From positions 1 to 40,088 of the IMG/VR virus record IMGVR_UViG_3300020202_000150: a stretch of 40,088 bases of DNA, one strand, 5' to 3'. The notes beneath the pieces are model-generated. The model made no database searches. It was not told where the DNA came from and saw nothing but the letters and a program-made list of their open reading frames with translations. This DNA is from a virus. The position numbers and the translations under genes are program-made. Shown here piece after piece: positions 1 to 40,088 of the stretch. Numbering within the stretch: position 1 is the stretch's first letter; each line of letters starts with the position of its first letter.

Positions 1-127
1 AATCTCCAAAACGCGATTCGCTCAAAACGCCAACAGCTAAACGGCGAGATTTCACAAGCATTGAAAGAATCAAGCGATGAACCTATTTTAAATGCTATTC
101 CAGCTCTTGAAGAACTGCGAAAGGTTA
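1..127. repeat. terminal direct repeat, left copy (circular-contig overlap)
   Basis: This stretch is identical to 39962..40088. It lies inside one reading frame that continues across the junction, so it is best read as the overlap left when a circular molecule was assembled, not as a biological terminal redundancy. The length of 127 matches a k-mer size commonly used by short-read assemblers. The real circle is 39,961 bp. Confidence 0.93.
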
Positions 128-4298: not shown

Positions 4299-4508
4299 AT
4301 GCTGGTCTCAATTTTGTTTTTCCTTTTGGGTCTCTCTGTTTCACTTAACGTTTTTCTATTCATTAAATTCCGTAAGACCAAATTAGAACGACCAAAATCT
4401 CAGGATTTGAGGGAATTCCTAGGGGATTTAGCTCGCGGTAAAGCTGTTATTAAGATCGAGGTTCTTGATCCAAATGGATTATTTCATCACTCAATGAGGG
4501 GAATTTGA
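4299..4508 (+). CDS. small single-pass membrane protein, unknown
   Basis: This is a 69-residue protein with an N-terminal transmembrane helix (LVSILFFLLGLSVSLNVFLF), a basic stretch (KFRKTKLERPK) and a polar C-terminus ending near KAVIKIEVLDPNGLFHHS. ATG 4299 is preferred because GGAGG lies 10 bases before it; an in-frame ATG at 4278 has no ribosome site. It overlaps the next gene by one base (TGATG), so translation is probably coupled to the dehydratase. No family was recognised with confidence. Confidence 0.6.
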   Translation: MLVSILFFLLGLSVSLNVFLFIKFRKTKLERPKSQDLREFLGDLARGKAVIKIEVLDPNGLFHHSMRGI

Positions 4509-5359
4509 TGAAAGTATTTATTACGGGAATTACGGGTAGCCTTGGGACGGCGGTAACTAAGTATCTCTTAGAGCATTATCCAGATTGCCAAATTTACGGC
4601 TATTCAAGAGACGAATTAAGACAGCAAAAATTCATGAGAGATAAAAGAATCACTCTTACGCTTGGATGCATCCGGGATCGCGATAGACTCTTAGAGGCAA
4701 CGCGCGGAATGGACATTATATTTCATCTGGCGGCCGTGAAACACGTTGACCTTTTAGAGCTAAATCCAGAAGAGGCAGCAAGCGTAAACATCGACGGCAC
4801 AAGGAATGTTCTTTACGCGCAGAGAATGAACCGAATTCCGAGAGTTGTACTCTCATCAACGGATAAGGCTGTTTACCCTGTCAATGCCTACGGTGATTCT
4901 AAAGCAATGGCCGAAAAGCTTATTTTGAGAAACCCCAAAAATCTCGTTTTTCGCTGGGGGAACGTAATAGCGTCAAACGGTTCAGTGGTTCCGCAATTTG
5001 TTAAATCAATTAAAGATCATCAAACAGCATATGTGACTGACACAAATATGATTAGATTTTGGATTACCCTGAATGAAGCTGCGAAATTTATTGTAACCAA
5101 TAGTCTTGATCAGAACTCTTCAGGTCTTATCATTCCTGAAATGCGTGCCGCAAAAGTTGTTGATGTCGCGTTAGCGGTTGCTGCAATCCTTGGAGTTTCA
5201 ACCACCATTAAAACGACTGGACCAAGACCTGGCGAAAAACTGAGCGAATGTCTTAGGACTCAGTATGAAGGCGCTGAGATTCATGCGCACACGGTTCCGC
5301 AATTTTCAATGGATGAACTGATTCAAACTCTCACTCCTGTTGTGCAGGCAATCGCATGA
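4508..5359 (+). CDS. UDP-sugar 4,6-dehydratase, PseB/FlaA1-like
   Basis: This 283-residue SDR enzyme should convert UDP-GlcNAc to a 4-keto-6-deoxy sugar, the first step to pseudaminic or legionaminic acid. Seen motifs: Rossmann GITGSLG (7-13), AAVKHVDLLELNPEEA (75-90), STDKAVYP with the Asp119/Lys120 pair, YGDSK (Tyr128, Lys132), RWGNVIASNGSV (149-160), MIRFWITLNEA (181-191) and GPRPGEKLSE (238-247). All are hallmarks of the PseB/CapD soluble subfamily. It is slightly shorter than PseB (~330). ATG 4508 follows GAGGGG. It overlaps the next gene by 4 bp. Whether it also epimerises C5, as PseB does, cannot be read from the motifs. Confidence 0.88.
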   Translation: MKVFITGITGSLGTAVTKYLLEHYPDCQIYGYSRDELRQQKFMRDKRITLTLGCIRDRDRLLEATRGMDIIFHLAAVKHVDLLELNPEEAASVNIDGTRNVLYAQRMNRIPRVVLSSTDKAVYPVNAYGDSKAMAEKLILRNPKNLVFRWGNVIASNGSVVPQFVKSIKDHQTAYVTDTNMIRFWITLNEAAKFIVTNSLDQNSSGLIIPEMRAAKVVDVALAVAAILGVSTTIKTTGPRPGEKLSECLRTQYEGAEIHAHTVPQFSMDELIQTLTPVVQAIA

Positions 5360-5949
5360 TTTTAATTGTTGGGCACAAAGGCGTGATGGGCAGACGTTAC
5401 TCGTGTATCCTCAATTACCTGGGCAAAAAATGGATCGGCACGGATATTGATGGGCCAACGCAAGAATTTCAGTCAAAAGACATTAGCGGCATTATTATCG
5501 CAACTCCAACGGAAACTCATGCGGCACTCATTAAGGTTTATGCGGAATTCGGAAAACCAATTTTAGCCGAAAAACCAATTTGCAAAGATCTTAATCAGCT
5601 TAAAGAAGTACTTTATGCGGTTAAAGATATTCCGTTTGAAATGGTCTATCAATACAAGCAAATAGCACGTCTTGGCGATGGTCCGTCACATTACAATTAT
5701 TGGAACCACGGTAGAGACGGACTTCACTATGATTGCATTCAGATCATTGGTCTCGCTCGCGGGCCAGTTGAGTTAGCAGAGGATTCACCGATTTGGGATT
5801 GCAGGATTAATGGGGATTTTCTTTTCATTGAGCAAATGGATTTCGCCTATGTATCAATGATCAAGAATTGGCTCAAAAAGCCGGGGATGGATTTAAACGA
5901 AATTTACGCAATTCATGAAAAAGTCCATGACATGGTGAAATCCGCATGA
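5356..5949 (+). CDS. shortened Gfo/Idh/MocA-type NAD(P)-dependent oxidoreductase
   Basis: The 197-residue product starts with a Rossmann fold (GHKGVMGRR, 6-14), then IIIATPTETHAAL (46-58) and the family hallmark AEKPI (71-75), so it should oxidise or reduce a sugar with NAD(P). Family members are usually 300-400 residues; much of the C-terminal substrate-binding sheet is reduced here to ~100 residues (YWNHGRDGLHYDC, then a helical end). Both ends overlap neighbours by 4 bp, so it is an intact gene and not a remnant. Such oxidoreductases occur beside SpsF and aminotransferase genes in flagellar sugar clusters. Substrate unknown. Confidence 0.72.
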   Translation: MILIVGHKGVMGRRYSCILNYLGKKWIGTDIDGPTQEFQSKDISGIIIATPTETHAALIKVYAEFGKPILAEKPICKDLNQLKEVLYAVKDIPFEMVYQYKQIARLGDGPSHYNYWNHGRDGLHYDCIQIIGLARGPVELAEDSPIWDCRINGDFLFIEQMDFAYVSMIKNWLKKPGMDLNEIYAIHEKVHDMVKSA

Positions 5950-6671
5950 GCGCACCGATTAGGGTCTTAATTGGCATTCAAGCAAGGAGCACGTCAAAGC
6001 GCTTTCCAGGAAAATGCTTTGCAATGCTAGGTGAGAAGACTGTTTTAGATCACGTTATCGACAATGCAATTGAATGCTGTACATACTTAAATAACTTCAA
6101 GGAAAAGAATGGTTTCGTCGCATCCGCAGCACTTTGCATTCCGTATAATGATCCCATTAAAGAGCGATATCAGAACAAGATTAACATCATTGTTGAAGGT
6201 CCAGAGGATGATGTTTTAGAGCGGTATAAAATACTAGTTTCTAAAATGGACCCGGATTATCTCGTCCGCGTAACTGGCGATTGTTGTTTACTTCCAGGAT
6301 ATGTCATCACAAAGCATATCAATGTCGCTGTTAAAAATACCTATGATTACGTCTCAAATGTTGATGAGCGCATTCGCACAACGCTCGATGGGTTTGACGT
6401 TGAGGTCATTTCGCGGAGGCTCTTTGATTACACTGCAGAGTGCGCAAAAATCCAACACGACAGAGAACACGTCACAACATGGATGAGGCGCTGTACACCG
6501 ACCTGGGCGCGCGTTGGGCACGTTGTGGGTTATCTTGATTTTGCAGACGTGAAACTCTCAGTTGATACGCCAGAGGATTTAGAAAGAGTTAGAAAGCACT
6601 ACGACAAAATTCAATTAGCAATTAAAGTCGCGGAGGATTTGCATGGTAAACGCAACGTCCACCGACTTTAG
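5946..6671 (+). CDS. SpsF-type cytidylyltransferase (CMP-sugar synthesis)
   Basis: This 241-residue enzyme probably activates a nonulosonic acid with CTP. The nucleotide-binding motif is IQARSTSKRFPGK (11-23), close to the IQARxxSTRLPGK of SpsF/NeuA/KdsB relatives. Further family motifs are GPEDDVLERY (85-94), VRVTGDC (107-113), DGFDVEV (148-154), DREHVT (172-177) and VDTPEDL (206-212). These favour the SpsF branch over NeuA/PseF. It overlaps the oxidoreductase by 4 bp and the aminotransferase by 29 bp. In this operon it would do the job of PseF; the acceptor sugar is inferred. Confidence 0.82.
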   Translation: MSAPIRVLIGIQARSTSKRFPGKCFAMLGEKTVLDHVIDNAIECCTYLNNFKEKNGFVASAALCIPYNDPIKERYQNKINIIVEGPEDDVLERYKILVSKMDPDYLVRVTGDCCLLPGYVITKHINVAVKNTYDYVSNVDERIRTTLDGFDVEVISRRLFDYTAECAKIQHDREHVTTWMRRCTPTWARVGHVVGYLDFADVKLSVDTPEDLERVRKHYDKIQLAIKVAEDLHGKRNVHRL

Positions 6672-7857
6672 TTGGTACCGTAGGGCGCAAGACTGTATCG
6701 CTCAAGGCGCACTGACAAACTCTAAACGCCCTGAGTGTTTTGTTCTGGGAGCATATCCGACACACCTAAAAAGAGGCGAGGGCTGTCATGTATACGATAC
6801 GACCGGTAAGCGTTACATTGATTATATTACTGGGCTTGGCAGCAATTTATTTGGCTACGGCAATTCTTATATTCATGAGAGTGTCGCAAATGCTTTCAAG
6901 ACTGGCTCGGCGTTATCGCTATCGTCGGATCTTGAGATCTATTTTGCAGAAAAAGTAAAAGAGTTTTTCCCCTGGATTACTCATATTAAGATTCTAAAGA
7001 CCGGAACTGAGTCAACTCTTGCGGCATTAAGAATCGCTAGAGCATATACCGGCCGGAATTTGATATTATCTGAAGGGTATCACGGCTGGAGTGATGAATT
7101 CACCTCACTTAATCCGCCGGCTCTTGGTGTTCCGGGAACTTACACCATTGAAAAGCTTCATAAAGAATCGCGTCTTGATAAAGCTGCGGCCGTAATTGTT
7201 GAGCCTGTCATGACTGATGACGGGCCAGAAAGAATCGCTTGGCTCCGTGATCTAAGACGAAGATGTAACGCATCTGGTGCCCTGCTAATCTTTGATGAAG
7301 TAATAACCGGACTGCGTTACTTAGGTCACGGGGTCTCTAATTGCCATGGCATTGAACCAGATTTGATTTGTCTTGGGAAAGCCATTGGCGGCGGAATGCC
7401 GTTAGCCGTGGTTGGCGGTAAGACGCACATTATGAACTGCGGTGAGTATTTTGTGTCGAGCACGTTTGCGGGTGAGCGAGTCTCATTGGCAGCAGGACTT
7501 AAGGCGCTCGAATTACTTCAAACGAATCATAAATATTCAATTAATGATCTCTGGCGTGAAGGGACGAAATTTCTTTTAGGCTTTAATCGAATGTGGCCAG
7601 AGATGATTAGGATTGAAGGGTATGCCACGCGCGGAACGTTTAAGGGAAGTGATACGGCGAAAGCTCTTCTTTGGCAAGAGGCTTGTAAGGCGGGCATTCT
7701 ATTCGGCTCCTCGTGGTTCTTTAATTTCTCTCATCCAGAGCAAACTGAAATTGTTTTAAACACTTTAAGCGACATTATGGTCCGCATTAAACATGGCAAT
7801 GTGAAACTCGAAGGGACATTACCGACGAGTCCGTTTGCCGCAAAAGTAAGGGGATAA
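6643..7857 (+). CDS. class-III PLP aminotransferase, glutamate-1-semialdehyde mutase-like
   Basis: This 404-residue PLP enzyme resembles HemL. GTES (121-124), GYHGWSD (145-151), IVEPV (185-189), FDEV (217-220) and LGKAIGGGMPLA (244-255) with the PLP-binding Lys246 are all present. HemL itself is unlikely because the gene lies in a sugar operon of a phage. It would add the amino group to the 4-keto sugar or a later intermediate, replacing the DegT-fold PseC of the classical pathway. ATG 6643 follows GGAGGA and starts inside the end of the cytidylyltransferase gene. Confidence 0.85.
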   Translation: MVNATSTDFSWYRRAQDCIAQGALTNSKRPECFVLGAYPTHLKRGEGCHVYDTTGKRYIDYITGLGSNLFGYGNSYIHESVANAFKTGSALSLSSDLEIYFAEKVKEFFPWITHIKILKTGTESTLAALRIARAYTGRNLILSEGYHGWSDEFTSLNPPALGVPGTYTIEKLHKESRLDKAAAVIVEPVMTDDGPERIAWLRDLRRRCNASGALLIFDEVITGLRYLGHGVSNCHGIEPDLICLGKAIGGGMPLAVVGGKTHIMNCGEYFVSSTFAGERVSLAAGLKALELLQTNHKYSINDLWREGTKFLLGFNRMWPEMIRIEGYATRGTFKGSDTAKALLWQEACKAGILFGSSWFFNFSHPEQTEIVLNTLSDIMVRIKHGNVKLEGTLPTSPFAAKVRG

Positions 7858-7859
7858 TT

Positions 7860-8063
7860 ATGGATAGTGAAAAAACATTTGATGAACTCGTTCAATATTT
7901 CAAAGACAAACGCACCAACATTATTAAATTGGATAGTGAACTCAGAAAAGAGGCTGAACTTTATCGCGCGCAAATAAAGGCAGCCTTTGGCATTACCGAC
8001 AATGAACAGGCCAACGTGCTTGATACCATCATTGCTATTCGAAAAGTCTTGGGAATGAAATGA
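7860..8063 (+). CDS. small helical protein in sugar operon, unknown
   Basis: The 67-residue product is predicted all-helical and charged (FDELVQYFKDKRTNIIK, LRKEAELYRAQIK, VLDTIIAIRKVLGMK). Its size recalls acyl carrier proteins, but the D-S-L attachment motif is absent. It begins 2 bp after the aminotransferase stop and overlaps the acetyltransferase by 4 bp, so it is translated with the pathway. An accessory subunit is possible. Confidence 0.6.
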   Translation: MDSEKTFDELVQYFKDKRTNIIKLDSELRKEAELYRAQIKAAFGITDNEQANVLDTIIAIRKVLGMK

Positions 8064-8578
8064 TCAGACTTCGCGGGCTGATTGCTGATGATCTTGGTTA
8101 CATGTTTGAATGGCGAAATGATCCGAGGATTAATCATTGGACACGGCAAAACGATGTGATTTCATCAGCATCTCATAAAGCTTGGTTTGAACGCCAAGCG
8201 CATGACCCTAAGATTAAGATGTATGCAATTGACTCTGGCTGTGTCGGTAAACACTGGCAGGCGCCTATTTTGGGAGTTTGCGGTCTCACCGATATTGATC
8301 TAATCAACCGTAGGGCTGAGTTTTCTCTCTATATTGGCCCTGAATATCATGGGAACGGTTATGGCGAAGCGGCCCTTAGGCTCTTACTCGAAAAAGGATT
8401 TAAAACTTATGGTCTCAACTCCATTTGGGGTGAGACGTTTGACGGCAATCCCGCGGCCAAGATGTTTGAAAAGATCGGGTTTAAAAAAGAGGGAACACGT
8501 CGTGCGTTTTATTTCCGTGACGGAAAGTTCATCGATGCACATTTATATTCCATTCTAAATTCGGAGTTTCAATCATGA
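8060..8578 (+). CDS. PseH-like GNAT N-acetyltransferase
   Basis: This 172-residue RimJ/RimL-fold acetyltransferase should acetylate the amino group of the UDP-sugar, as PseH does in pseudaminic acid synthesis. Seen: EWRNDPRINHW (17-27), AWFERQ (41-46), GVCGLTDIDLINRRAEFSLY (72-91), the acetyl-CoA loop YHGNGYGEAALR (96-107), GLNSIWGE (118-125) and FEKIGFKKEGTRR (136-148). The LTDID..NRRAEF pattern and full length match PseH-type enzymes. ATGA overlap with the preceding gene; last enzyme of the operon. Confidence 0.84.
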   Translation: MIRLRGLIADDLGYMFEWRNDPRINHWTRQNDVISSASHKAWFERQAHDPKIKMYAIDSGCVGKHWQAPILGVCGLTDIDLINRRAEFSLYIGPEYHGNGYGEAALRLLLEKGFKTYGLNSIWGETFDGNPAAKMFEKIGFKKEGTRRAFYFRDGKFIDAHLYSILNSEFQS

Positions 8579-8799
8579 TGTCATTTCTCTCAGGCTTTTT
8601 TGCCTGTCTTGTACTGATGCTATTAACTTGGGCTATCTATCGTAGACACCGGCACCCAAGGACGGAAGCATTGCCGGTGCTTTCCTTTGAAGACGTGAAA
8701 AATCCGCAATTCAAAGCGTATGGGAAAATTGAGCGCAGAAAGCCCAAAGTGCATGATGATGCTGAGGCGATAAAGCGAGAAAAAGGACAGTTTAATTAA
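8575..8799 (+). CDS. small single-pass membrane protein at end of sugar operon
   Basis: The 74-residue product has one transmembrane helix (SFLSGFFACLVLMLLTWAIY) followed by RRHRH and a charged cytoplasmic tail. It starts at an ATGATG overlapping the acetyltransferase stop. Its 3' end overlaps the converging minus-strand lipoprotein gene by 4 bp. Function unknown. Confidence 0.55.
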   Translation: MMSFLSGFFACLVLMLLTWAIYRRHRHPRTEALPVLSFEDVKNPQFKAYGKIERRKPKVHDDAEAIKREKGQFN

Positions 8800-12879: not shown

Positions 12880-13071
12880 ATGGGTGAGAAAAAAATCGAG
12901 GGCTTCATAGATATTGAAGAAGCGTCCAAGTTTTTGGGCGGTATGCCGACAAATACAATCAGATGGAAAGTCAGTCTTGGTGAAATCAGGGCTTATAAAG
13001 TTGGTCGCAAACAAATATTTGACCCAAATGAATTAAGAGAATACGTCAAGCGTCGAAAAATCCAAGTATGA
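12880..13071 (+). CDS. excisionase-like winged-helix protein
   Basis: The 63-residue product carries a MerR/HTH_17-type domain as in many phage excisionases: FIDIEEASKFLGGMPTNTIR, then WKVSLGEIRAYKVGRKQIFD, then EYVKRRK. ATG 12880 is used because GGGGGG precedes it by about 5 bases; ATG 12868 has no ribosome site. It overlaps the integrase gene by 4 bp, matching an Int/Xis pair in one transcript. Confidence 0.75.
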   Translation: MGEKKIEGFIDIEEASKFLGGMPTNTIRWKVSLGEIRAYKVGRKQIFDPNELREYVKRRKIQV

Positions 13072-14108
13072 AGCTGATTAGTATACCAGGGAAGGCAAAC
13101 GCGAACTTATATCGACATCCTACAACAGGGATCATTTATGTTCGCATGTATAAAGAGGGAAAGGGCCGGCTTGAGAAATCAACCGGCACCGATAAACTCT
13201 CTGACGCGCGAATTATTGCCGACGATCTTAAATTCAAATTCCTTGGCAAAAAAAATCCAAGGCAAGGTCAAAGTCTCTGCGGTGAGCTTTTTGAGGAGTT
13301 TATCGAGCAAAAAAGTATTAAGTCTCAAGGGACAATTAACAGCATAAGAGCAAGCTGGAAACACCTTAAGCCTTATATCGAGGGAATGCTTCCGGAAGAG
13401 ATTAATGAGGTGTGGTGGGAAAAAATCTATATCCCTAAAAAAAGAATAGAAACACACAAAAACAGAAAATTCTTTAATGATCATAAATGGCTCAGAATGT
13501 TTTTGCTTTCACTACAAAGGCAGGGAGTGATTGAGCGGCGCCCGAATCTCGTAAACCCTGACCCAGAGCGCGATGCGGGAAGAGTTTATTCAGATAAAGA
13601 GATTGAGAGACTATTGGCGCACGCCGATGGCGATTTAAAATTACAAATAAAAATGGCTTACACGATGGGAATGCGGTGGGGTGAAATCCTTGGTTTAACT
13701 TTCGACCGCATCGATGTTCTACGTGGAACAATCAAGCTCAGAGCGGAAGACACGAAGATTCGTAAACAAAGAATATTTGCAATTTCAGATTCTGTCAGGG
13801 ATGAGCTGGTGGAGCGCAAAAAAATATCTGAAAGCCTTTACTTGTTTCCGATGAAAGATGATCCGACTCGGCCACGCAAAAGAGACGGCATGAAAACGCA
13901 GTGGGAAAATTGTAAAAAGAATGCCGGGGTGACTGGCCGGTTTCATTTTTTAAGGCACACGTTTTTGACCAAGGCGTTTAAGTCTCCGGGCGCCAACCCC
14001 GCACTGATTTGTCACTATGCGGGGCTATCGCTTGAGGAGGCTCAGAAGACGTATTTGCATTTTACGGTTGAGGATACAAGGGCAGTGGCCAGCATTGTGG
14101 AGCTATAG
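13068..14108 (+). CDS. tyrosine recombinase integrase
   Basis: This 346-residue enzyme integrates and excises the prophage. Residues 1-60 form a beta-rich arm-binding domain (LYRHPTTGIIYVRMYKEGKG), 65-165 a SAM-like core-binding domain, and 170-346 the catalytic domain. The catalytic set is visible: Arg203 (MGMRWGEILGL), Lys230 or Lys233, His293-x2-Arg296 (HFLRHTF), His316 (ICHYAGLS) and nucleophile Tyr329 (KTYLHF). A tRNA-derived attP lies 72 bp downstream, as expected for tRNA-targeting integrases. Confidence 0.95.
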   Translation: MKLISIPGKANANLYRHPTTGIIYVRMYKEGKGRLEKSTGTDKLSDARIIADDLKFKFLGKKNPRQGQSLCGELFEEFIEQKSIKSQGTINSIRASWKHLKPYIEGMLPEEINEVWWEKIYIPKKRIETHKNRKFFNDHKWLRMFLLSLQRQGVIERRPNLVNPDPERDAGRVYSDKEIERLLAHADGDLKLQIKMAYTMGMRWGEILGLTFDRIDVLRGTIKLRAEDTKIRKQRIFAISDSVRDELVERKKISESLYLFPMKDDPTRPRKRDGMKTQWENCKKNAGVTGRFHFLRHTFLTKAFKSPGANPALICHYAGLSLEEAQKTYLHFTVEDTRAVASIVEL

Positions 14109-20935: not shown

Positions 20936-21170
20936 CGTTTTGCCATTTGCGCGCCTCATTAAAAGCCCTGATCAATTCGATCAAATTCCAAATGGCGCTA
21001 GAATTTCGTTTAATAAGGAATTTAGCGACAGGGATAGGCGTTGGATGAGACTTCATAATGAAGAGTACCTAATCTGTGATGACGGTGGCGGCATGTGCGC
21101 TTACGATGCTTTTGCGTCCGAAGGTCAATTTTGGGTGAGAGATTTCCTTGTAGATATGGCGGCAGAGTGA
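20928..21170 (+). CDS. unknown 80-residue protein
   Basis: The ATG at 20928 overlaps the end of the previous gene by 8 bp. The product (SNVLPFARLIKSPDQFDQIP, LHNEEYLICDDGGGMCAYDA) looks like a small mixed alpha/beta protein. Its stop overlaps the synthase GTG (GTGA), so translation of the synthase may depend on it. Confidence 0.58.
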   Translation: MSNVLPFARLIKSPDQFDQIPNGARISFNKEFSDRDRRWMRLHNEEYLICDDGGGMCAYDAFASEGQFWVRDFLVDMAAE

Positions 21171-22135
21171 AATTTAACGAAGGTGTTAAGATCATAGCTG
21201 AGGTAGGTTCTAACTGGCATTCACTACAAGACTGTCTCGATAGCATTCGCATGGCAAAGCTTGCTGGTGCCGATGCGGTGAAGTTTCAGTTGTATAACCA
21301 TAAAGCACTCTATGGTATTGCCGGAATTCCGGATGAGAATGTTGTTGATAATTGGTTGCCTGGAACATTACCAGTAGACTGGCTTCCGCGATTAAAAGAA
21401 TGCGCTGACCAAGTTGGGATTGAATTCCTATGCTCAGCATTCAGTCCGGAATTGCTTGATGTCGTAAACCCGTTTGTCGAAACGCATAAGCTTGCATCAG
21501 CGGAAATGGAACATGTTGGGATGCTTGATAAGCTGATTGAATATGACAAGCCAGTCATCGTCTCAACTGGCGGACACACGATTGATGAAGTGAAGCGTGT
21601 TGTTGAATACTTAAATGGCCTTGATATTTGTGTGATGTATTGCGTGAGTGAATATCCTGCGCGATTTATTCAATACTCAAGAATTTTAGCTTTAAAAGAG
21701 CTTGAGAAACCACTGGGATTTTCTGACCATACATTAGATATGGGTTTTATCGGACGCCATTTGAGCATTCGGAACGTTAATGTTTTTGAGAAACACGTTA
21801 ATTTTGTGAATGTTAAGGACACGCCGGACGCGCCGCACTCATTGTCGTTTGATGAGTTTAAATTATATGTGAAATCTCTGCATTGGAAATTGAGAGACGA
21901 TGACGTGCAATTAGAAACCGCCATGCGTGAAAAACATAACCGCAGACTCATTGCCACCACGACAATTAAAGCTGGTGAGACATTACAATTAGGCGTCAAT
22001 TACGGGATTTATCGCTCACTTAAGCCCGCGCCGGCCGCGCTATCACCATGGAAAGCAACACTCATCGACGGTAAGCGCGCTGCGATTGATATTCAAGCTG
22101 GTGACGGAATAGCTGGCGATTCTATCACAGATTAA
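21167..22135 (+). CDS. nonulosonate synthase, NeuB/PseI/LegI family
   Basis: This 322-residue enzyme condenses phosphoenolpyruvate with a six-carbon amino sugar to make a nine-carbon nonulosonic acid. Seen: IIAEVGSNW (9-17), AGADAVKFQ (33-41), FLCSAFSPE (87-95), HKLASAEM (107-114), IVSTGGHT (131-138), GFSDHT (184-189) and FEKHVNF (207-213). His188 and His210 match the metal ligands of NeuB. A SAF domain follows (RRLIATTTIKAGETL, 259-273) but its end is divergent. GTG 21167 overlaps the previous TGA and keeps the family N-terminus. It lies 13 kb from the other sugar genes. Confidence 0.9.
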   Translation: MKFNEGVKIIAEVGSNWHSLQDCLDSIRMAKLAGADAVKFQLYNHKALYGIAGIPDENVVDNWLPGTLPVDWLPRLKECADQVGIEFLCSAFSPELLDVVNPFVETHKLASAEMEHVGMLDKLIEYDKPVIVSTGGHTIDEVKRVVEYLNGLDICVMYCVSEYPARFIQYSRILALKELEKPLGFSDHTLDMGFIGRHLSIRNVNVFEKHVNFVNVKDTPDAPHSLSFDEFKLYVKSLHWKLRDDDVQLETAMREKHNRRLIATTTIKAGETLQLGVNYGIYRSLKPAPAALSPWKATLIDGKRAAIDIQAGDGIAGDSITD

Positions 22136-23567: not shown

Positions 23568-24875
23568 ATGGCTGTCTACAAAATGCATTCGCTCAAACAA
23601 GAGCAAGCAATATTCTCTGAGAACCGAATTACAGTTGTTGGGACTGGTACACAGTGGGGAAAAACGACAGTCGGTGCTTTGCGTATGAAGCACAAACTAT
23701 TCACATTCAAGAATAAAGACGACGCCTTTATTATCACGGCTCCAGATTACAAAACGATGCAGCAATCAACACTTAAGGCTTTCTTACCGCTCATGAAAGG
23801 CTGGGGTGTTTACCGGAAAGCTGATGCCACGTTTGAAATGCATAAAGGCGGCATTGTTTATTTCAGAACGGAAACCCATCCTGACTCTATTGTTGGTATC
23901 ACAAATGTTCGTCACATTTGGGGTGACGAGGCTGGCAAATACTCGCTTTATTTCTGGGAAAACATGCAGGCTCGGGCTGATTTCTTGGGTGCGAGTATTG
24001 ATTTAACAACATCACCTTATTCGCTTAATTGGGTCTGGCGCGATCTCATTAAACCTTGGCGTGCCGGCAAACGCCCTGACGTAAACGTGATACAAGCTGC
24101 CTCATGGGAATCCCCATATCACTCACTACATGATCCCAAAAAGAGAGATGAAAAGCGCTCAACCATGGATGCGCGTAGGTTTCAGATGCTCTATGGCGGT
24201 GAGTTTGGCCAGATGGCTGGACTTGTTTATGACTGCTTTGATGAGCATGAAAACTTATGTGAGCCGTTTCAATTGCCGTCGGGCACAAGATACGTTGCAG
24301 GCGTTGATTGGGGTTTTACTGACCCATTTGTTTTAAAGGTGCGTGCGATTACACCAAGCGGGCATCATTACGCGATTAGTGAGTTTTATAAAACTGGGAT
24401 GACTCTTAGTAAAATTCTAGATGTCGCAAAACAAAAAAAGCAAATCTACGGGATTGAGATGTTTTACTGCGATCCCAGTCAACCTGGCCACATTGAAGAG
24501 TTTAACCAAAATGGTTTGCCTGCCGTGGGGGCTGATAACGACATACGGCGCGGCATTGATCTCCATTATGAACTCATAAAATCCCGTAGATTCAAAATAT
24601 TTAAAGGCTCATCGCCTTACACTATGGATGAATTAGAGACTTATCACTATCCAGAGCCTGAGGATTTGGGTCCAGATGATGATTCAAAAGAGCAACTCCC
24701 TGTTGGCCAAGGGGATCACGCTCTTGACGTAGATCGGTATTTAACTATAATGACTGTGAGATCCGAGCTTAAAGCTGTTCCAAAAGCGCCAGCTGAAATT
24801 AAATTCCCACACAATGAAACCTATGAACAACGCCGCAAAAGACTCATGTCTAATCGGCGTCATGAGGATTATTGA
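23568..24875 (+). CDS. terL: terminase large subunit
   Basis: This 435-residue motor packages DNA. ATPase: Walker A GTGTQWGKTT (25-34, Lys32), IITAPDY (55-61), Walker B HIWGDEAG (116-123, Asp120/Glu121), LTTSPY. RNase-H nuclease: VAGVDWGFTDP (243-253, Asp247), MFYCDPSQP (298-306, Asp302), QGDHALDVDRY (381-391). The length is typical for podo/sipho TerL. No strong ribosome site lies before ATG 23568; ATG 23583 is a possible alternative. Overlaps the methyltransferase by 4 bp. Confidence 0.95.
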   Translation: MAVYKMHSLKQEQAIFSENRITVVGTGTQWGKTTVGALRMKHKLFTFKNKDDAFIITAPDYKTMQQSTLKAFLPLMKGWGVYRKADATFEMHKGGIVYFRTETHPDSIVGITNVRHIWGDEAGKYSLYFWENMQARADFLGASIDLTTSPYSLNWVWRDLIKPWRAGKRPDVNVIQAASWESPYHSLHDPKKRDEKRSTMDARRFQMLYGGEFGQMAGLVYDCFDEHENLCEPFQLPSGTRYVAGVDWGFTDPFVLKVRAITPSGHHYAISEFYKTGMTLSKILDVAKQKKQIYGIEMFYCDPSQPGHIEEFNQNGLPAVGADNDIRRGIDLHYELIKSRRFKIFKGSSPYTMDELETYHYPEPEDLGPDDDSKEQLPVGQGDHALDVDRYLTIMTVRSELKAVPKAPAEIKFPHNETYEQRRKRLMSNRRHEDY

Positions 24876-26062
24876 AATTGATCATACGTGGGGATTGTCT
24901 CGAAAAGCTTAAAGCACTCGCTGATAATTCGATTGATTCAGTCGTTACCGATCCGCCTTACGGTCTTAAATTCATGGGAAAGAAATGGGATTATGATGTG
25001 CCGAGTGTTGAAGTTTGGCGTGAGGTGCTCAGGGTACTTAAGCCTGGTGGTCATCTGCTTAGCTTTGGTGGTACTCGTACCTACCACCGTATGGCTTGTG
25101 CTATTGAGGATGCGGGTTTTGAAATTCGTGACCAAGTGATGTGGCTTTATGGTTCAGGATTTCCTAAGTCTCATGATATTTCAAAAGCGATTGATAAAGC
25201 CGCTGGTGCTGAGCGTGAGGTGGTCGGTAAGAGAATTCGTCTTGGTGACCTGAAAGCTTATTCAGACGATCGCTCAAAAGCCTATCACGGGAATTATTCA
25301 AACGACGGCAACGAGTCACCAATAACCGTCCCCGCGACCGAATCCGCAAAACAATGGCAAGGTTGGGGTACGGCACTTAAGCCAGCTAACGAGCCAATTT
25401 GTTTAGCACGTAAGCCACTCGAAAAAGGCCTCACTGTTTCAGAGAATGTTTTGAAGTATGGAACAGGTAGCATAAATGTTGATGCGGGGAGGATTGAGTT
25501 AGCTTCGAGTGAAAATCCAGAAAAACTCAAAGCACGCAGCGGAGGTCAAGAAGGATTTAAGCCAGACGGCTATGTCGGCGGAATTGGCCAGAGACGAGAA
25601 TCACAGGGGTGGGATTGTTCAAAAGGCCGCTGGCCTGCGAATGTTTTGCTCGATGAATGTGCGGCAGAAATGCTGGATGAGATGAGTGGGATTACAAAAT
25701 CCAATATTCGCCATCCGACGGGTGGTGTCCGAGGACACCACCATGGCCAAGAGCGAAAGCTCAAAGATGTGACTGTCCGAGGACAGTCTGACTCCGGCGG
25801 CGCATCCCGCTTTTTCTATGTCGCTAAAGCCTCAAAACGGGAACGTGGTGAGGGAAATAATCATCCCACAGTCAAACCCATCAAACTCATGGAATATCTC
25901 ATCAAGCTTGTGACTCCACCAAACGGCACCGTGCTTGATCCATTCATGGGCTCAGGCTCAACAGGTGTTGCGGCTAAAAAACTTGGCTTTAATTTCATCG
26001 GTATTGAACTCTCACCGGAGTATGCGGAAATTGCTGAGAAGAGGATTTCGCATGCTGTATGA
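24872..26062 (+). CDS. DNA methyltransferase (beta-class, N4-C or N6-A)
   Basis: This 396-residue enzyme has the catalytic motif DPPY (27-30, in VVTDPPYGLKFM) near the N-terminus and the AdoMet motif DPFMGSGSTG (356-365) near the C-terminus, the beta-class order. HPTVKPIKLMEYL precedes the AdoMet site. The long middle (~110-320) should hold the target-recognition domain. No restriction partner is seen, so it probably protects phage DNA. The TTG start overlaps the terL stop. Two near-perfect DNA palindromes lie within its coding sequence. Confidence 0.88.
   Translation: MKLIIRGDCLEKLKALADNSIDSVVTDPPYGLKFMGKKWDYDVPSVEVWREVLRVLKPGGHLLSFGGTRTYHRMACAIEDAGFEIRDQVMWLYGSGFPKSHDISKAIDKAAGAEREVVGKRIRLGDLKAYSDDRSKAYHGNYSNDGNESPITVPATESAKQWQGWGTALKPANEPICLARKPLEKGLTVSENVLKYGTGSINVDAGRIELASSENPEKLKARSGGQEGFKPDGYVGGIGQRRESQGWDCSKGRWPANVLLDECAAEMLDEMSGITKSNIRHPTGGVRGHHHGQERKLKDVTVRGQSDSGGASRFFYVAKASKRERGEGNNHPTVKPIKLMEYLIKLVTPPNGTVLDPFMGSGSTGVAAKKLGFNFIGIELSPEYAEIAEKRISHAV
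25721..25742. repeat. perfect 10-bp inverted repeat in methyltransferase gene
   Basis: GGTGGTGTCC and GGACACCACC pair perfectly around GA. The inner TGTCCGAGGACA is shared with the palindrome at 25771. It lies in coding sequence (GGVRGHH). Confidence 0.75.
25771..25788. repeat. perfect 8-bp inverted repeat in methyltransferase gene
   Basis: GACTGTCC and GGACAGTC pair around GA, 48 bp from the first palindrome and with the same TGTCCGAGGACA core. It encodes TVRGQS. Confidence 0.75.
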
Positions 26063-29621: not shown

Positions 29622-30545
29622 ATGGCTTTAACTTATAATCAAATCAGTGCAATCACTGAGAAAAAATTTATTCCGAAAATGGTTGATAACATCTTTGATA
29701 GCAATCCGTTGCTTCAGAGATTTAAAAAAGGTGATGTCTACACGTCTGTTGACGGTGGTACAGAGATCATCCAGCCCTTGAACTACGCTCAGAACTCTTC
29801 TGGCGGTTGGTATTCAGGTGCAGAGACCCTTAGTACGCAGGATAACGAAGTTCTGACTGCCGCCAGCTATAGTTGGAAACAGCATTACGACAATATTTCA
29901 ATCTTGCGTTCAGATGAACTTAAGAACTCTGGCGGTCCCGCTATTCTTAAATTCGTTCAGCAAAAGATTAAAATTGCCGAGATGTCTGGCCAAGACCGCA
30001 TGGGAACTGGCCTCTACAATGCAGGCAGTGATTCAAAAGCAATTGCTGGTCTTCGCTCAATCGTTTCTACCAGCAATACTGTTGGCGGTATCGCTCAAGG
30101 AACATATTCTTGGTGGCAGGCTCAAGTTGATAGCACAACTACAACTTTGAGCATTGCTGCAATGAATAGCCGTTTCTCTGCTTGCCGTATCGGTGCAGAT
30201 AAACCCACCGTTATCACTTGTGGTTCCACTTTGTGGGATCTTTACTATAATCTTTTGCAACCGCAACAGCGTTTCCAGGATGCTGAAACTGCTAAGGGCG
30301 GTTTCTCTGGCCTGATGTTCAACGGCTGCCCGGTAATTGACGACTCACACGCACCCGCATCGCATATGTTCTTCTTAAACGAGAAGTATCTGCATCTTTA
30401 CTACCATAAAGATGAAAACTTCCGTTTTGAGCCGTTCCAAAAGCCGGTTAACCAGAACGCGAAAATTGCGAAAATTTACTGGATGGGTGCATTTGGAACA
30501 TCAAACGCACGTATGCAGGGCGCATTAACTGCTATCACCGCTTAA
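29622..30545 (+). CDS. major capsid protein
   Basis: This 307-residue protein directly follows the scaffold gene with a strong GGAGG. It begins ALTYNQISAITEKKFIPKMV, then NPLLQRFKKGD, EIIQPLNYAQNSSGGWYSG and a long helical spine. The middle has PTVITCGSTLWDLYYNLLQP, and the end has FNGCPVIDDSHAP and LHLYYHKDENFRFEPFQKP, as in HK97-fold capsids of podo- and siphoviruses. No protease gene is seen, so maturation is probably scaffold-driven without cleavage. Confidence 0.9.
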   Translation: MALTYNQISAITEKKFIPKMVDNIFDSNPLLQRFKKGDVYTSVDGGTEIIQPLNYAQNSSGGWYSGAETLSTQDNEVLTAASYSWKQHYDNISILRSDELKNSGGPAILKFVQQKIKIAEMSGQDRMGTGLYNAGSDSKAIAGLRSIVSTSNTVGGIAQGTYSWWQAQVDSTTTTLSIAAMNSRFSACRIGADKPTVITCGSTLWDLYYNLLQPQQRFQDAETAKGGFSGLMFNGCPVIDDSHAPASHMFFLNEKYLHLYYHKDENFRFEPFQKPVNQNAKIAKIYWMGAFGTSNARMQGALTAITA

Positions 30546-30565: not shown

Positions 30566-31045
30566 ATGGGATTTCAAGGTGTAGCTCCGGTAGTATTTGA
30601 AAGCGTATCGCAGGTCACTGCTACTCCCTCCGTTGAACTTGGCACACGCCGAGTTGTTGACGGTGAAGAGTATGTGTACTGCTACAACGCAGGTGGCGGG
30701 CAGGCGAGTGTTAATTTGGGCGTGAAGTTGATCACTGGCGCTTCAGGTTACTCGATTGCTCAAACGTCTATCACTGACGTATTCAATCCGCTTGTTGGTG
30801 TTGTGAAACATTCCACAATGGCAGCTGGCGATTATGGATGGGTCATGGTTAAGGGTTTTGCAACTGTGAAAGTTGTCTCTGCAATGACGGCAGATTATCG
30901 AATGATCGCCCTCGGTGCAGCTGGCTCTTTCATTGAAGCAAGCGGAACCACGACGTTTGGAACTGCAACAGTTGTTGGTCATGCTTTGAGCGCCAACACT
31001 GGTTCTGGCGGATCTGTTTACGCTTTCATCAAGGGTCTTGCATAA
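30566..31045 (+). CDS. capsid decoration-type protein
   Basis: The 159-residue product is beta-rich (RRVVDGEEYVYCYNAGGG, GDYGWVMVKGFATVKVVSAM) and rich in Gly, Ser, Thr and Val. It sits right after the capsid gene with a strong GAGGGGGG site. The GWVMVKG pattern resembles small head-stabilising proteins. The terminator just after it would keep capsid and this protein at high level. Ser/Thr content makes it a candidate glycosylation target. Confidence 0.7.
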   Translation: MGFQGVAPVVFESVSQVTATPSVELGTRRVVDGEEYVYCYNAGGGQASVNLGVKLITGASGYSIAQTSITDVFNPLVGVVKHSTMAAGDYGWVMVKGFATVKVVSAMTADYRMIALGAAGSFIEASGTTTFGTATVVGHALSANTGSGGSVYAFIKGLA

Positions 31046-31072
31046 GCAGGCCCTGACTGAAACTTAAATATG

Positions 31073-31109
31073 GTGCTAGGGGTCTTAATTGGCCCCTTGG
31101 CACTCTTTT
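31073..31109 (+). terminator. strong intrinsic terminator after capsid/decoration genes
   Basis: GTGCTAGGGG (31073-31082) pairs with CCCCTTGGCAC (31093-31103), with one bulged T and a 10-base loop, then TCTTTT. It separates highly expressed capsid genes from the Maf-like gene, which would depend on read-through. Confidence 0.78.
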
Positions 31110-31120
31110 AAGAGAAAGGG

Positions 31121-32149
31121 ATGATAAGCGTGCTCCGTAATCTAGACATGGTTTTTGAGTTTAAGAACACGATTCCAAAGCCTCCGATGGCGGCTAAGGA
31201 AATGTATGGGCAGGCGTGTTCTAATGATGAAGTGACTGTGAACACTTGGCGCGAGAAATGGATTGGCCAAGCGGAAGCAAATCACAAGCGTTTTGGATCT
31301 TTTAAAGATCATGGCATTGGTACACTCTTTGGTATCAATAAACATAAGCCCGCTATCGTAATCGGCTCCGGACCATCGCTTCAATACAATGTCGATAAAC
31401 TTAAAGATGCTAAAAAAGCAGGCATTCTTTTAATTTCATGCCTCCATAACTTTCAGTACATGGTAGATAACGGCATTGAGGTCGATTACTACGTTTCACT
31501 TGATGCGGGTGCCGTTGTAATTGAAGAGATCTCCGAGGGCGGAAAGCTTTCGCACGCTGAATATGTTGAGGCTACTAAGAACTCAACTCTCTTAGCATTC
31601 ATCGGATCAAATCCGGCGTTGTTTGATAACTGGAAGGGGAAAGTTCATCTATTTAACTGCCCAGTTCCGGATAAAGAATATATTGAGAGATCAGCGAAAT
31701 TAGAAAAATTCAACACTCTCGTCTCAACTGGCGGAAATGTTCTCGGTGCCGCCATGTATATTGCAAAAGCAATCTTTGGTTCAAACCCGATTGTTTTTGT
31801 GGGCGCTGATTTTTCATTCTCTTACACAAGAAAATTTCACGCATGGCCCTCAAAGTATGACGGCAATCTTGGTGAGGCTATCAGATGCATTGACGTCTGG
31901 GGAAACTCTGTTTTGACATGGCAGAGTTATTATAATTTTAAGACCTGGTTTGACTGGGTTTCAACACAGGTTCCAGGAATTTACATTAACTGCACCGAAG
32001 GCGGTCTTTTAGGTTCATATCCTGAAGGTAACATTGCGCAGATTAAGCAGATGCGCCTTGAGGATTTAGTTAGAATGTACTCGATGCATGAAGAGATCAG
32101 GCATCAGTGCGAAAATCCAAGTGACGATGAAAGAAAAGTTCTATTTTAA
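31121..32149 (+). CDS. DUF115/Maf-like glycosyltransferase among capsid genes
   Basis: This 342-residue protein matches the DUF115 (MptE/Maf) core: PAIVIGSGPSLQYNVDKL (77-94), AGILLISCLHN (100-110), GIEVDYYVSLDAG (118-130), VSTGGNVLGAAMYIAKAIFG (201-220) and NPIVFVGADFSFS (222-234). Maf proteins transfer CMP-activated nonulosonic acids to flagellin Ser/Thr. It is core-only, shorter than most bacterial Mafs. GAGAAAGGG precedes the ATG. With the sugar genes in the same genome it is the likely transferase; its place between decoration and other head genes points to virion proteins as targets. The other DUF115 branch (pterin kinase) is possible but unlikely here. Confidence 0.83.
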   Translation: MISVLRNLDMVFEFKNTIPKPPMAAKEMYGQACSNDEVTVNTWREKWIGQAEANHKRFGSFKDHGIGTLFGINKHKPAIVIGSGPSLQYNVDKLKDAKKAGILLISCLHNFQYMVDNGIEVDYYVSLDAGAVVIEEISEGGKLSHAEYVEATKNSTLLAFIGSNPALFDNWKGKVHLFNCPVPDKEYIERSAKLEKFNTLVSTGGNVLGAAMYIAKAIFGSNPIVFVGADFSFSYTRKFHAWPSKYDGNLGEAIRCIDVWGNSVLTWQSYYNFKTWFDWVSTQVPGIYINCTEGGLLGSYPEGNIAQIKQMRLEDLVRMYSMHEEIRHQCENPSDDERKVLF

Positions 32150-32163
32150 AAAAGGAGTTTTAA

Positions 32164-32430
32164 ATGGCTTTCACAATCGGACGTGAGAACACGGTCTTAG
32201 GGAATAAAAAAGTAGCACTTCTGTCGTGCTCTGTTGATTCAGCTTCAGGAAACATCGACACAGGTCTTGCTGTTGTTGATCACGTTTCTATTTGTCCTGT
32301 TAGCATGGCAACGGCTGCGATTGTTTTAAAGAAAAACGTGGGCTCTGGAGCCACCGCACGCGCCGGGATCATCAATATCAATGGCGCTGCAAGCGGTGAC
32401 GTTTTCCTTTTGACTGTCTACGGCAGGTAA
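32164..32430 (+). CDS. small beta-rich virion protein
   Basis: The 88-residue product (VALLSCSVDSASGNIDTGLA, AAIVLKKNVGSGATARAG) is Ser/Thr/Ala/Gly-rich with alternating strands, like a small head-surface or spike protein. AAAGGAG gives a strong ribosome site. It lies directly after the Maf-like gene, so it could be a substrate. Confidence 0.6.
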   Translation: MAFTIGRENTVLGNKKVALLSCSVDSASGNIDTGLAVVDHVSICPVSMATAAIVLKKNVGSGATARAGIININGAASGDVFLLTVYGR

Positions 32431-32434
32431 TTAG

Positions 32435-33280
32435 ATGCCATCAGCCAATTGGTCAGGTTCAGGCGGCGGCGGAGCCGTTGCCGATAGTGTTCTAACTACG
32501 CGAGGGGATCTCCTCACTCGTGATAGTTCCGCATTATCAAGAATCGCCATTGGCTCAAAAGGGTATCTTCCGCACTCAAGTGGGAGTGATCTTGAATACC
32601 AGCGCTTATTAGATCCGACAAAACGTTTGATGATCTTTGAAGACTGGATCGAAGGCGGTGCAGCGGGCGCGTCGGTTAGCTCTTATAACTGGAACGCTGC
32701 GGTCGGAACAGCTGGTGTTTTAAGTGCGAGCACAACTACCGTTACGGGTGTAAGAAACCTTGGAATTATGAGACACTCCGTCTCAACTGATACAGGGTTT
32801 GCAAACGCTTCAACGCTGACAGTGTTAAAAATTGGTGGCGGCCGAATCTTTTTTGAGGCTTGCATTCAGATAGACACACTTAATGACGGCACCAACTCTG
32901 CCCGGATGCAAGTTGGTCTTAATAGCACAACAACTGCAGCACAAAACGCCAACGGTGTTTATTGGATGTATGACTCTGCAAACACTAAATTCCAATTTTG
33001 CACAACGGCAAGCTCCTCAACTACGGCAACCGCACTTGGCTCAGACGTTGTAGCTGATGCTTGGTACAGACTTGGGTTTGAGATTAACGACGATGCTACA
33101 AGTGTTACACCTTATATTAATGGTGTAGCGCAAACAGCTCAGACCACTAACATTCCAGCAACCTCAACACTGCTTCACTTAAGTGCATGTTGGGGAAAGA
33201 CAGCTGGCTCGGGAACTTTGCTTTTGTATAATGATTATATTTTTTATGACCAACTTTTCAGCGGGAACAGACACACATGA
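32435..33280 (+). CDS. virion protein with lectin-like beta-sandwich
   Basis: The 281-residue product starts with a Gly/Ser linker (SANWSGSGGGGAVADSVL), then TTRGDLLTRDSS and GYLPHSSGSDLEYQ, a pattern common at the start of phage surface proteins. From ~70 it looks like a concanavalin-type sandwich (FFEACIQIDTLNDGTNSARM, GVYWMYDSANTKFQF, WYRLGFEIND, YINGVAQ). It is very rich in Thr and Ser (CTTASSSTTATALG). It may decorate the capsid and bind glycans. Overlaps the next gene by 4 bp. Confidence 0.65.
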   Translation: MPSANWSGSGGGGAVADSVLTTRGDLLTRDSSALSRIAIGSKGYLPHSSGSDLEYQRLLDPTKRLMIFEDWIEGGAAGASVSSYNWNAAVGTAGVLSASTTTVTGVRNLGIMRHSVSTDTGFANASTLTVLKIGGGRIFFEACIQIDTLNDGTNSARMQVGLNSTTTAAQNANGVYWMYDSANTKFQFCTTASSSTTATALGSDVVADAWYRLGFEINDDATSVTPYINGVAQTAQTTNIPATSTLLHLSACWGKTAGSGTLLLYNDYIFYDQLFSGNRHT

Positions 33281-33576: not shown

Positions 33577-33924
33577 ATGAGCCATGGACCATTATCAGTA
33601 TATACCGCTACGATGGCGACTAATACGACGCTAACAAGCTCAGCTGATTTATCAAGGGCTTGGAAAACTGTTTACCTGCAAGTTCCTACGATGACATCAG
33701 GGACACAACTTCATATTCAAGCCTCTGATACTCTCGCTGGAACTTACCGCCGAGTGTATCATCCGCCAATTAACTCAAGCACCGTAGGAGTCAACGCATT
33801 TGCAATAGCATCCAGTGCAACTAACTGCCTTGTGCCGATCCCGAATGGACTGAGGTACATTAAAGTTGAAGCAACGGCGGTTGTGAGCTTTGATTGCGCG
33901 TTTAAGATTATTTGCTCAGATTAA
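33577..33924 (+). CDS. small beta-rich virion protein
   Basis: The 115-residue product is Thr/Ser-rich with strand repeats (TATMATNTTLTSSADLSRAW, TVYLQVPTMTSGTQLHIQAS, LRYIKVEATAVVSFDCAFKI), suggesting a beta-sandwich head or neck protein. AAGGGG precedes the ATG. It is another possible glycosylation target. Confidence 0.6.
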   Translation: MSHGPLSVYTATMATNTTLTSSADLSRAWKTVYLQVPTMTSGTQLHIQASDTLAGTYRRVYHPPINSSTVGVNAFAIASSATNCLVPIPNGLRYIKVEATAVVSFDCAFKIICSD

Positions 33925-39143: not shown

Positions 39144-40088
39144 TGTCATTTGATTTGTCTAAACTCTCAGACGAAGAACTTGATGCGCTAGAAAAAAAGG
39201 AAATGGCAAAGCGCAACGGCGGAATTGATCTAAGCCTATTGTCTGATGAGGAGCTTGATAAATTAGAGGCTCAGGCGCTTGCGAAACAAAACGCTCCAAC
39301 AGCAATGGAAGCGGCCGGCGTTGGATTACGGAAAGGTGTTTCTTTTGGATTTAGTCCTGTCATTGCTGGCGCAGGCGGCGCTGCTGGCGCTTTCCTGGGA
39401 ACACTTGATTCTGGGCGCAGTTTTGGTGAGGCAATTGATGCCGGTAAACGTGGCTTTCTTGATGAAAGACAAATTGAAATAGATAGACAAAAGGCGGCTT
39501 CCGAGGCTCATCCCGGCGCTGCAATGGCTGGCGAAATTGGTGGAATGGCGTTAACGCTTCCGTTTGCTGGTGCGCGTGGCCTAAAGGGCGTAGCTGGAGT
39601 TGGCGCCGCACAAGGAGTTGGAAATGCTGCGAGCACGTCTCAGAGTTGGGAAGAGGCGGCCGTTGAAATTCCAAAACAAGCTGCTATTGGTGGGTTAGCT
39701 GGTGCCGTATCTTATGGAGTGTTAAAGGGCGCCGATAAGCTTGGTTCAGCAGCAATCAATTCAAAAGTTGGCCAAAAGGCCACGGCAGTTGGAAAAAAGG
39801 CTTTGGCATTACCTGGGAAAGTCACAACAAAAGTTGCAAGTGCTTTAACAGGAATTAGCGAGCAAGAAATTAAAACGTTTGCCACTCAGACGGACAAAGT
39901 AAATGCAATCATCAAAAGATCCGGTGGAGATCTAACAGAAGAAACCGATACATTAAGAAGAAATCTCCAAAACGCGATTCGCTCAAAACGCCAACAGCTA
40001 AACGGCGAGATTTCACAAGCATTGAAAGAATCAAGCGATGAACCTATTTTAAATGCTATTCCAGCTCTTGAAGAACTGCGAAAGGTTA
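39143..40088 (+). CDS. 5' part of origin-spanning ejection-type protein
   Basis: This is the N-terminal 315 codons of the 593-residue protein that ends at 963. The start has two near-identical repeats, DLSKLSDEELDALEKKEMAK and DLSLLSDEELDKLEAQALAK, of ~24 residues. Then come long Gly/Ala segments (PVIAGAGGAAGAFLG, AAIGGLAGAVSYGVLKG) able to enter membranes, and a helical body. The acidic repeats may bind a partner protein in the virion. The junction cuts the gene; the frame is continuous across it. Confidence 0.75.
   Translation, partial: MSFDLSKLSDEELDALEKKEMAKRNGGIDLSLLSDEELDKLEAQALAKQNAPTAMEAAGVGLRKGVSFGFSPVIAGAGGAAGAFLGTLDSGRSFGEAIDAGKRGFLDERQIEIDRQKAASEAHPGAAMAGEIGGMALTLPFAGARGLKGVAGVGAAQGVGNAASTSQSWEEAAVEIPKQAAIGGLAGAVSYGVLKGADKLGSAAINSKVGQKATAVGKKALALPGKVTTKVASALTGISEQEIKTFATQTDKVNAIIKRSGGDLTEETDTLRRNLQNAIRSKRQQLNGEISQALKESSDEPILNAIPALEELRKV
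39962..40088. repeat. terminal direct repeat, right copy (circular-contig overlap)
   Basis: Exact copy of bases 1..127, in the same reading frame of the same gene. It shows the window wraps around a circle and these bases should be counted once. Confidence 0.93.

Follow-up and report, generated by a model that had tools for sequence, protein, structure and literature searches.

To our knowledge, virion glycosylation has been established experimentally in few phages, and we know of no nonulosonate-coated phage described before. The enzymes of the mycobacteriophages Che8, Corndog and Myrna belong to glycosyltransferase families other than the one considered here, and act with other sugars. PMC12363180, citing Freeman et al. 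2023, describes the virions of these three phages as glycosylated by an enzyme that the phage encodes and that modifies capsid or tail-tube proteins, much as is proposed below for a system known here from its genes; none of them is described there with a nonulosonate pathway. In the open-licence literature searched, no report of nonulosonic acid in a phage capsid was found.

In bacteria, the Maf flagellin glycosyltransferases (PF01973/MAF_flag10; PDB: 5mu5) are large proteins of 666 residues (5mu5) or 750–755 residues (Paenibacillus), with a central catalytic domain, a GSGPS motif and a GAD/GQD-like motif, and are paired in the genome with a PseB/NeuB pathway. They modify flagellin monomers in the cytoplasm (PMC4065374). 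According to PMC11339370, the modified residues lie around hydrophobic or low-complexity regions, and the outer domains of Maf show similarity to methyltransferases, flagellins and export chaperones. The same Pfam domain and a related fold are found in the archaeal 6-hydroxymethylpterin diphosphokinase MptE (PDB: 8sd5), which carries the signatures TDLDG and GG[FL]TDGD. Nonulosonate pathways such as the Bacillus subtilis Sps pathway for legionaminic acid (PMC7439481) and the Pse-Maf island of Aeromonas caviae (PMC4065374) serve surface glycans, and combine a dehydratase, an aminotransferase, an acetyltransferase, a NeuB-type synthase and a CMP-synthetase. The closest described relatives in head organization are the SU10/Mx8-like podoviruses, such as Mx8 and BUCT555, whose head genes run in the order terminase, portal, scaffold-like gene, major capsid protein (MCP), next virion gene and tail-joining genes; both a Maf-like gene and NeuB are absent from 12 complete records of this group.

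The window, a stretch of 40,088 nucleotides of viral DNA analysed here at its full length, shares features with several of these systems. It has the podoviral head order, the central catalytic domain, both motifs and the best fold match of the Maf proteins, and the five enzyme types of the Sps and Pse-Maf systems. It differs from the Maf systems in that the enzyme has 342 residues and is encoded in the capsid block with no flagellin gene nearby, from MptE in that both signatures are missing, and from the Sps and Pse-Maf systems in its class-III aminotransferase, an extra Gfo/Idh gene and the absence of a recognisable SpsG/PseG hydrolase.

The phage lineage and its Maf-like gene

An exact direct repeat of 127 bp lies at the two ends of the window (1–127 and 39962–40088), and a reading frame from 39143 onward runs through it. 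These features together indicate that the genome is complete, with ~39,961 unique bases, and that the window edge is arbitrary. The genome encodes an MCP of the SU10 type (PF17236, 1.7e-5) and an adaptor (PF24175, 2.4e-23), and these families, along with the portal, terminase and integrase genes, point to a short-tailed, possibly temperate phage; judged from its genes, it is a member of an uncultured lineage of SU10-like podoviruses. Among 50,697 phage records no isolate was similar at the DNA level across the head block, and tblastn searches of these records with the Maf-like protein and with a divergent family member (from contig L028) gave no match, nor did a tblastn search of plasmids with the Maf-like protein. 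Scans of 84,980 bacterial and archaeal species genomes with the Maf-like protein and the MCP recovered no related prophage, the lone, distant MCP-like match being from Poseidoniales. A DNA methyltransferase gene lies at 24872–26062, between the terminase and portal genes, and only some relatives (L004, L005 and G019) have one. The features of the head region, and the integrase gene, are:

13068–14108: tyrosine integrase gene
29622–30545, + strand: MCP of the SU10/Mx8 type (phrog_9953, 4.5e-66; SU10_MCP)
30566–31045, + strand: decoration-type capsid protein, candidate acceptor by position and conservation
31048–31118, + strand: hairpin followed by TCTTTT in the gap between the decoration-type and Maf-like genes (RNA fold −25.3 kcal/mol, z = −3.1)
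31121–32149, + strand: Maf-like (PF01973) putative nonulosonyl-protein transferase, catalytic domain only, by PF01973, fold and the PseD/Maf model
32164–32430, + strand: 88-residue all-β protein, candidate acceptor or partner (AF2 pLDDT 87, seven strands)
32435–33280, + strand: Ser/Thr-rich (23%) protein with an SO2946-like C-terminal domain (PF22237, 1.5e-11)
33577–33924, + strand: small Ser/Thr-rich (24%) virion-block protein, candidate acceptor by composition and conserved order

The original prediction had placed a Maf/DUF115-like gene at 31121–32149, inside the capsid gene block and amid Ser/Thr-rich virion genes, and each part of this description is borne out. The frame is open throughout, and its product matches PF01973, a domain formerly called DUF115/MAF_flag10 and now MptE-like, with 80.9 bits (E=1.2e-22; curated cut-off 34.6). 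The gene may start at the GTG at 31130 rather than the ATG at 31121, because an AAAGGG Shine-Dalgarno-like stretch lies 9 nt before this GTG, abutting the ATG, and homologues start there. Three scans of viral contigs, two of them with the Maf-like protein or its alignment and the third with the MCP, yielded 92 distinct viral contigs with the gene, which is near full length in 87. This spread, along with dN/dS values of 0.04–0.12 in measurable close pairs, indicative of strong purifying selection, shows that it is not a chance reading frame. Its position is equally constant: of the 87 distinct contigs in which the capsid gene is present and the sequence extends far enough, all 87 carry it no more than 900 nt downstream of that gene. 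The mean identity of the Maf-like protein is 50%, as against 54% for the capsid protein, and the distances of the two proteins correlate (Mantel r = 0.62, p = 0.0002). The Maf-like gene behaves like a core gene of the lineage and not like passing cargo.

Affinities of the Maf-like protein

PF01973 covers Maf and MptE alike, and the two were separated by profile, motif and fold comparisons. Searched against the PDB, the profile of the phage family matched Maf 5mu5 at 3e-5 and MptE at 0.75; its scores were 32.8 and 28.1 bits for two Paenibacillus Mafs and did not exceed 9.3 for any of 14 archaeal MptEs. Profile-profile comparison (hhalign) gave a probability of 95.6 for the two Mafs versus 90.9 for the 14 MptEs, which puts all three in one superfamily, with the phage family on the side of Maf. 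Of 15 archaeal loci, 14 have a TDLDG-type motif, and 13 of the latter also have GG[FL]TDGD; neither signature occurs in any of the 23 phage proteins, all of which have GSGPS-like and GAD-like motifs. The AF2 model of the Maf-like protein (pLDDT 92.9, pTM 0.91) was ranked by Foldseek closest to Maf 5mu5 (8e-12), followed by MptE (1e-5) and the human ST8SiaIII sialyltransferases (~1e-4); one of the ST8SiaIII structures matched has the CMP-sialic-acid analogue CMP-3FNeu5Ac bound. By profile, motifs and predicted fold, then, the phage enzyme stands closer to the Mafs of bacteria than to the MptEs of archaea, as originally predicted, and the outcome that would have spoken against this, a predicted structure fitting the pterin-kinase branch alone, did not occur. 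Identity with the MptE pterin kinase was rejected on the missing motifs and on scores below those of Maf.

The relationship to Maf concerns one domain. The alignment spans the central domain alone (residues 41–239), and the phage protein has no counterpart of the N-terminal Rossmann-like or the C-terminal helical domain of Maf; it accordingly does not show the three-domain architecture and is termed Maf-like here instead of a full Maf. The NCBIfam PseD model gives it 18.7 bits, far from the cut-off of 670, and a weak match to the PseD/Maf model is seen in 13 of 23 family members. Linkage to flagellin genes was likewise not seen, as capsid genes adjoin the Maf-like gene in all loci. For comparison, the ORFs of a Paenibacillus Maf locus, named by us from sequence because the record has no annotation there, include flagellin, a FliD-like protein, two Mafs (755 and 750 residues), and PseB-like and PseG-like proteins. 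Larger Maf-fold proteins of 685–714 residues are present in other uncultured phages (BFVD A0A6J5PVH5, A0A6J7XC21 and A0A6J7X5Q0; one annotated as a methyltransferase), which suggests that more phage lineages have such enzymes.

The predicted nonulosonate pathway and its co-occurrence with the Maf-like gene

The sugar genes lie in an operon at 4505–8578, behind a tail-spike-like gene and with the same operon in relatives, and at a separate site upstream of the terminase genes:

4505–5359, + strand: UDP-GlcNAc 4,6-dehydratase, PseB/SpsM-like (PF02719, 1.6e-63; PseB model, 9e-60)
5356–5949, + strand: short Gfo/Idh/MocA-type oxidoreductase, kept in the operon (PF01408, 8.9e-8)
5946–6671, + strand: CMP-sugar synthetase, CTP_transf_3 (PF02348, 1.3e-11)
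6643–7857, + strand: sugar aminotransferase of class III (glutamate-1-semialdehyde type), apparently standing in for a PseC/DegT enzyme (PF00202, 2e-36)
7860–8063, + strand: small conserved sugar-operon gene (67 residues) with conserved neighbours and no Pfam match
8060–8578, + strand: PseH-like GNAT N-acetyltransferase (TIGR03585 PseH, 3e-22)
21095–22135, + strand: NeuB/PseI-type nonulosonate synthase (PF03102, 2e-36)

The prediction that the genome also encodes a sugar pathway is confirmed, with a dehydratase, a class-III aminotransferase, a PseH-like enzyme and a CMP-synthetase, and is extended by the NeuB-type synthase, a pathway member that it had not placed. The synthase matches the PseI model at 1e-34 and the NeuB model at 4e-31, both below the equivalog cut-offs, and its true start is probably nearer 21170. 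The gene lies directly upstream of terminase in relatives too, such that it and the Maf-like gene flank the head genes. The only matches of NeuB in phage records were a bacterial contig of Moritella and a single-cell virus of marine origin; among isolate phages in these records, such a NeuB is all but missing. The dehydratase has the catalytic T-x9-Y-x3-K triad, corresponding to the T-x9-M/Y-x3-K triad described for the B. subtilis Sps pathway (PMC7439481). The PseH-like protein scores 79.3 bits with the PseH model (cut-off 93.1), and the class-III aminotransferase is present in 16/16 records tested. No PseG-type UDP-sugar hydrolase was found in any of the 16 records searched. Three small conserved operon genes, the short Gfo/Idh gene, the 67-residue gene and a 74-residue gene at 8575–8799, have no clear role in known nonulosonate pathways, and one of them could supply the missing hydrolase step.

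Of the 21 records of at least 30 kb with the Maf-like gene, 20 have NeuB and 18 the CMP-synthetase, in one case via a match below the cut-off; the Maf-like gene (PF01973) and NeuB are each found in 0/12 complete phages with related capsids. The Fisher p for NeuB is 4e-8 and, the contigs being non-independent, expresses a contrast between clades and not a probability; the co-occurrence is confined to one clade, and the contrast with the 12 relatives may count few independent events. One contig of 35.8 kb, G009, retains the Maf-like gene and the Ser/Thr run of the MCP described below, and lacks NeuB, the PseB-like dehydratase and the CMP-synthetase; it may borrow a host sugar or be incomplete. 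Upstream of its terminase (L121:8427-10509) are genes for a ParB-like protein, an FkbM methyltransferase and a TET/JBP-type dioxygenase, which hint at DNA modification instead. The predicted pairing of the transferase with a nonulosonic-acid pathway thus holds at the level of the genome, and is absent from relatives without the gene. The further description of the system as self-contained goes beyond this: most pathway genes accompany the putative transferase, but a PseG-like hydrolase was not found in the 16 records and G009 has neither NeuB nor CMP-synthetase.

Candidate acceptors and probable virion glycosylation

Several products of the capsid block might receive the sugar. Residues 170–178 of the MCP (DSTTTTLSI) form a Ser/Thr run, six positions of which are Ser or Thr in at least 89% of 19 family members; the run was not seen in 10 aligned outgroup MCPs, for which the alignment in this region is uncertain. 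It may be considered a candidate acceptor site, as a lead rather than a proof. The decoration-type gene lies directly upstream of the Maf-like gene in 86/87 contigs, but one contig, L028, has kept the Maf-like gene without it, and the decoration protein therefore cannot be the sole acceptor. Homology of this protein to the 'major virion structural protein' in the same slot of Mx8 was too weak to accept (E 0.006, probability 6%), antibody matches of its profile in the PDB were weak and were discarded, and nothing else matched. The gene for the 88-residue protein follows the Maf-like gene directly in 81/86 contigs, mostly 10–19 nt away, and a Foldseek search of the PDB with its model gave no significant fold match. 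Mean Ser+Thr content is 20.8% in the family of this protein, 19.8% in the decoration family, 17.0% in the MCP and 10.2% in the Maf-like enzyme, and 13.2–15.3% in the MCPs of five relatives without the Maf-like gene. For the product of 32435–33280, no homologue was listed in the syntenic loci of relatives. The hairpin ahead of the Maf-like gene was not listed by a terminator scan, and a long gap at this place is seen in some near relatives only; the hairpin is possibly an attenuating terminator, lowering expression of the enzyme relative to the capsid proteins.

Glycosylation of the virion with nonulosonic acid is, in our assessment, the best explanation of this locus and probably the correct one; enzyme families, synteny, co-occurrence and selection are read from sequence, and donor, acceptor, timing and benefit are deduced from them. 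UDP-GlcNAc would be dehydrated, aminated and acetylated by the enzymes of the phage operon, a UDP-sugar hydrolase, supplied by the host or so far unrecognised, would release the sugar, and NeuB would add phosphoenolpyruvate before activation by the CMP-synthetase. The expected product is a nonulosonic acid activated with CMP, an acidic nine-carbon sugar resembling pseudaminic or legionaminic acid; its exact nature is uncertain because no PseG-like hydrolase was found in the 16 records and a class-III aminotransferase apparently replaces PseC. The Maf-like enzyme would then move it to Ser/Thr of capsid-block proteins, with the MCP run, the decoration protein and the 88-residue neighbour as candidate targets, in the host cytoplasm before or during head assembly; the cytoplasmic action of bacterial Maf on flagellin monomers fits capsid subunits as substrates. 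The outcome would be a negatively charged, hydrophilic, sialic-acid-like virion coat. The stronger proposition, to which we give even chances, is that a whole uncultured lineage makes its own sialic-acid-like sugar, which a stripped-down Maf builds covalently into every capsid as an obligate maturation step.

The same genes might instead act on a surface molecule of the host (flagellin, LPS or capsule), excluding other phages or altering the lysogen, with the place in the capsid block being incidental. Phage-encoded glycosyltransferases often alter host surface antigens (PMC12619734), flagellin is the normal target of Maf (PMC3426422, PMC4065374), and the integrase gene indicates that the phage may be temperate. 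We nevertheless regard this as unlikely: the Maf-like gene is just behind the capsid gene in 83/83 judgeable contigs, a position that implies late expression; the protein lacks the parts of Maf that resemble flagellins and chaperones; and the searched ORFs yielded no recognisable flippase, polymerase or lipid-linked transferase.

A yet smaller chance attaches to the transfer of a different nucleotide-activated sugar to virion proteins, or the use of a host donor, the phage sugar being a relative within the NeuB family, for instance an ulosonate with an 8-amino group or another modification. The PseB-like and PseH-like enzymes point rather to a 2,4-diamino-2,4,6-trideoxyhexose precursor, even though the class-III aminotransferase and Gfo/Idh oxidoreductase are foreign to the classical Pse pathway, PseG was not found in the 16 records, G009 is without NeuB, and, according to PMC11339370, both Neu5Ac and Kdo can serve a Clostridium Maf as donors. 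Least probable of all is that the Rossmann-like domain is an MptE-type pterin kinase or has another non-glycosyl role, including DNA modification or a structural role. The Pfam name and the shared MptE fold (Foldseek 1e-5, hhalign probability 91%) would agree with it, but the MptE motifs are missing in 23/23 proteins, Maf scores higher on every comparison, and no pterin genes were recognised among the ORFs searched, in a genome with a sugar pathway.

Virion glycosylation as such is already known in mycobacteriophages; nonulosonate glycosylation of the virion with the phage's own pathway would be new. The phage enzyme represents a natural minimal Maf without the flagellin-associated domains, and would be useful for studies on acceptor choice. 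As transferase and pathway are near-universal in the lineage, it becomes testable whether a sugar coat serves assembly, stability, spread or evasion. If the stronger proposition above holds, this would be the first nonulosonate-coated phage that we know of, and a case of a flagellin enzyme re-purposed for viruses.
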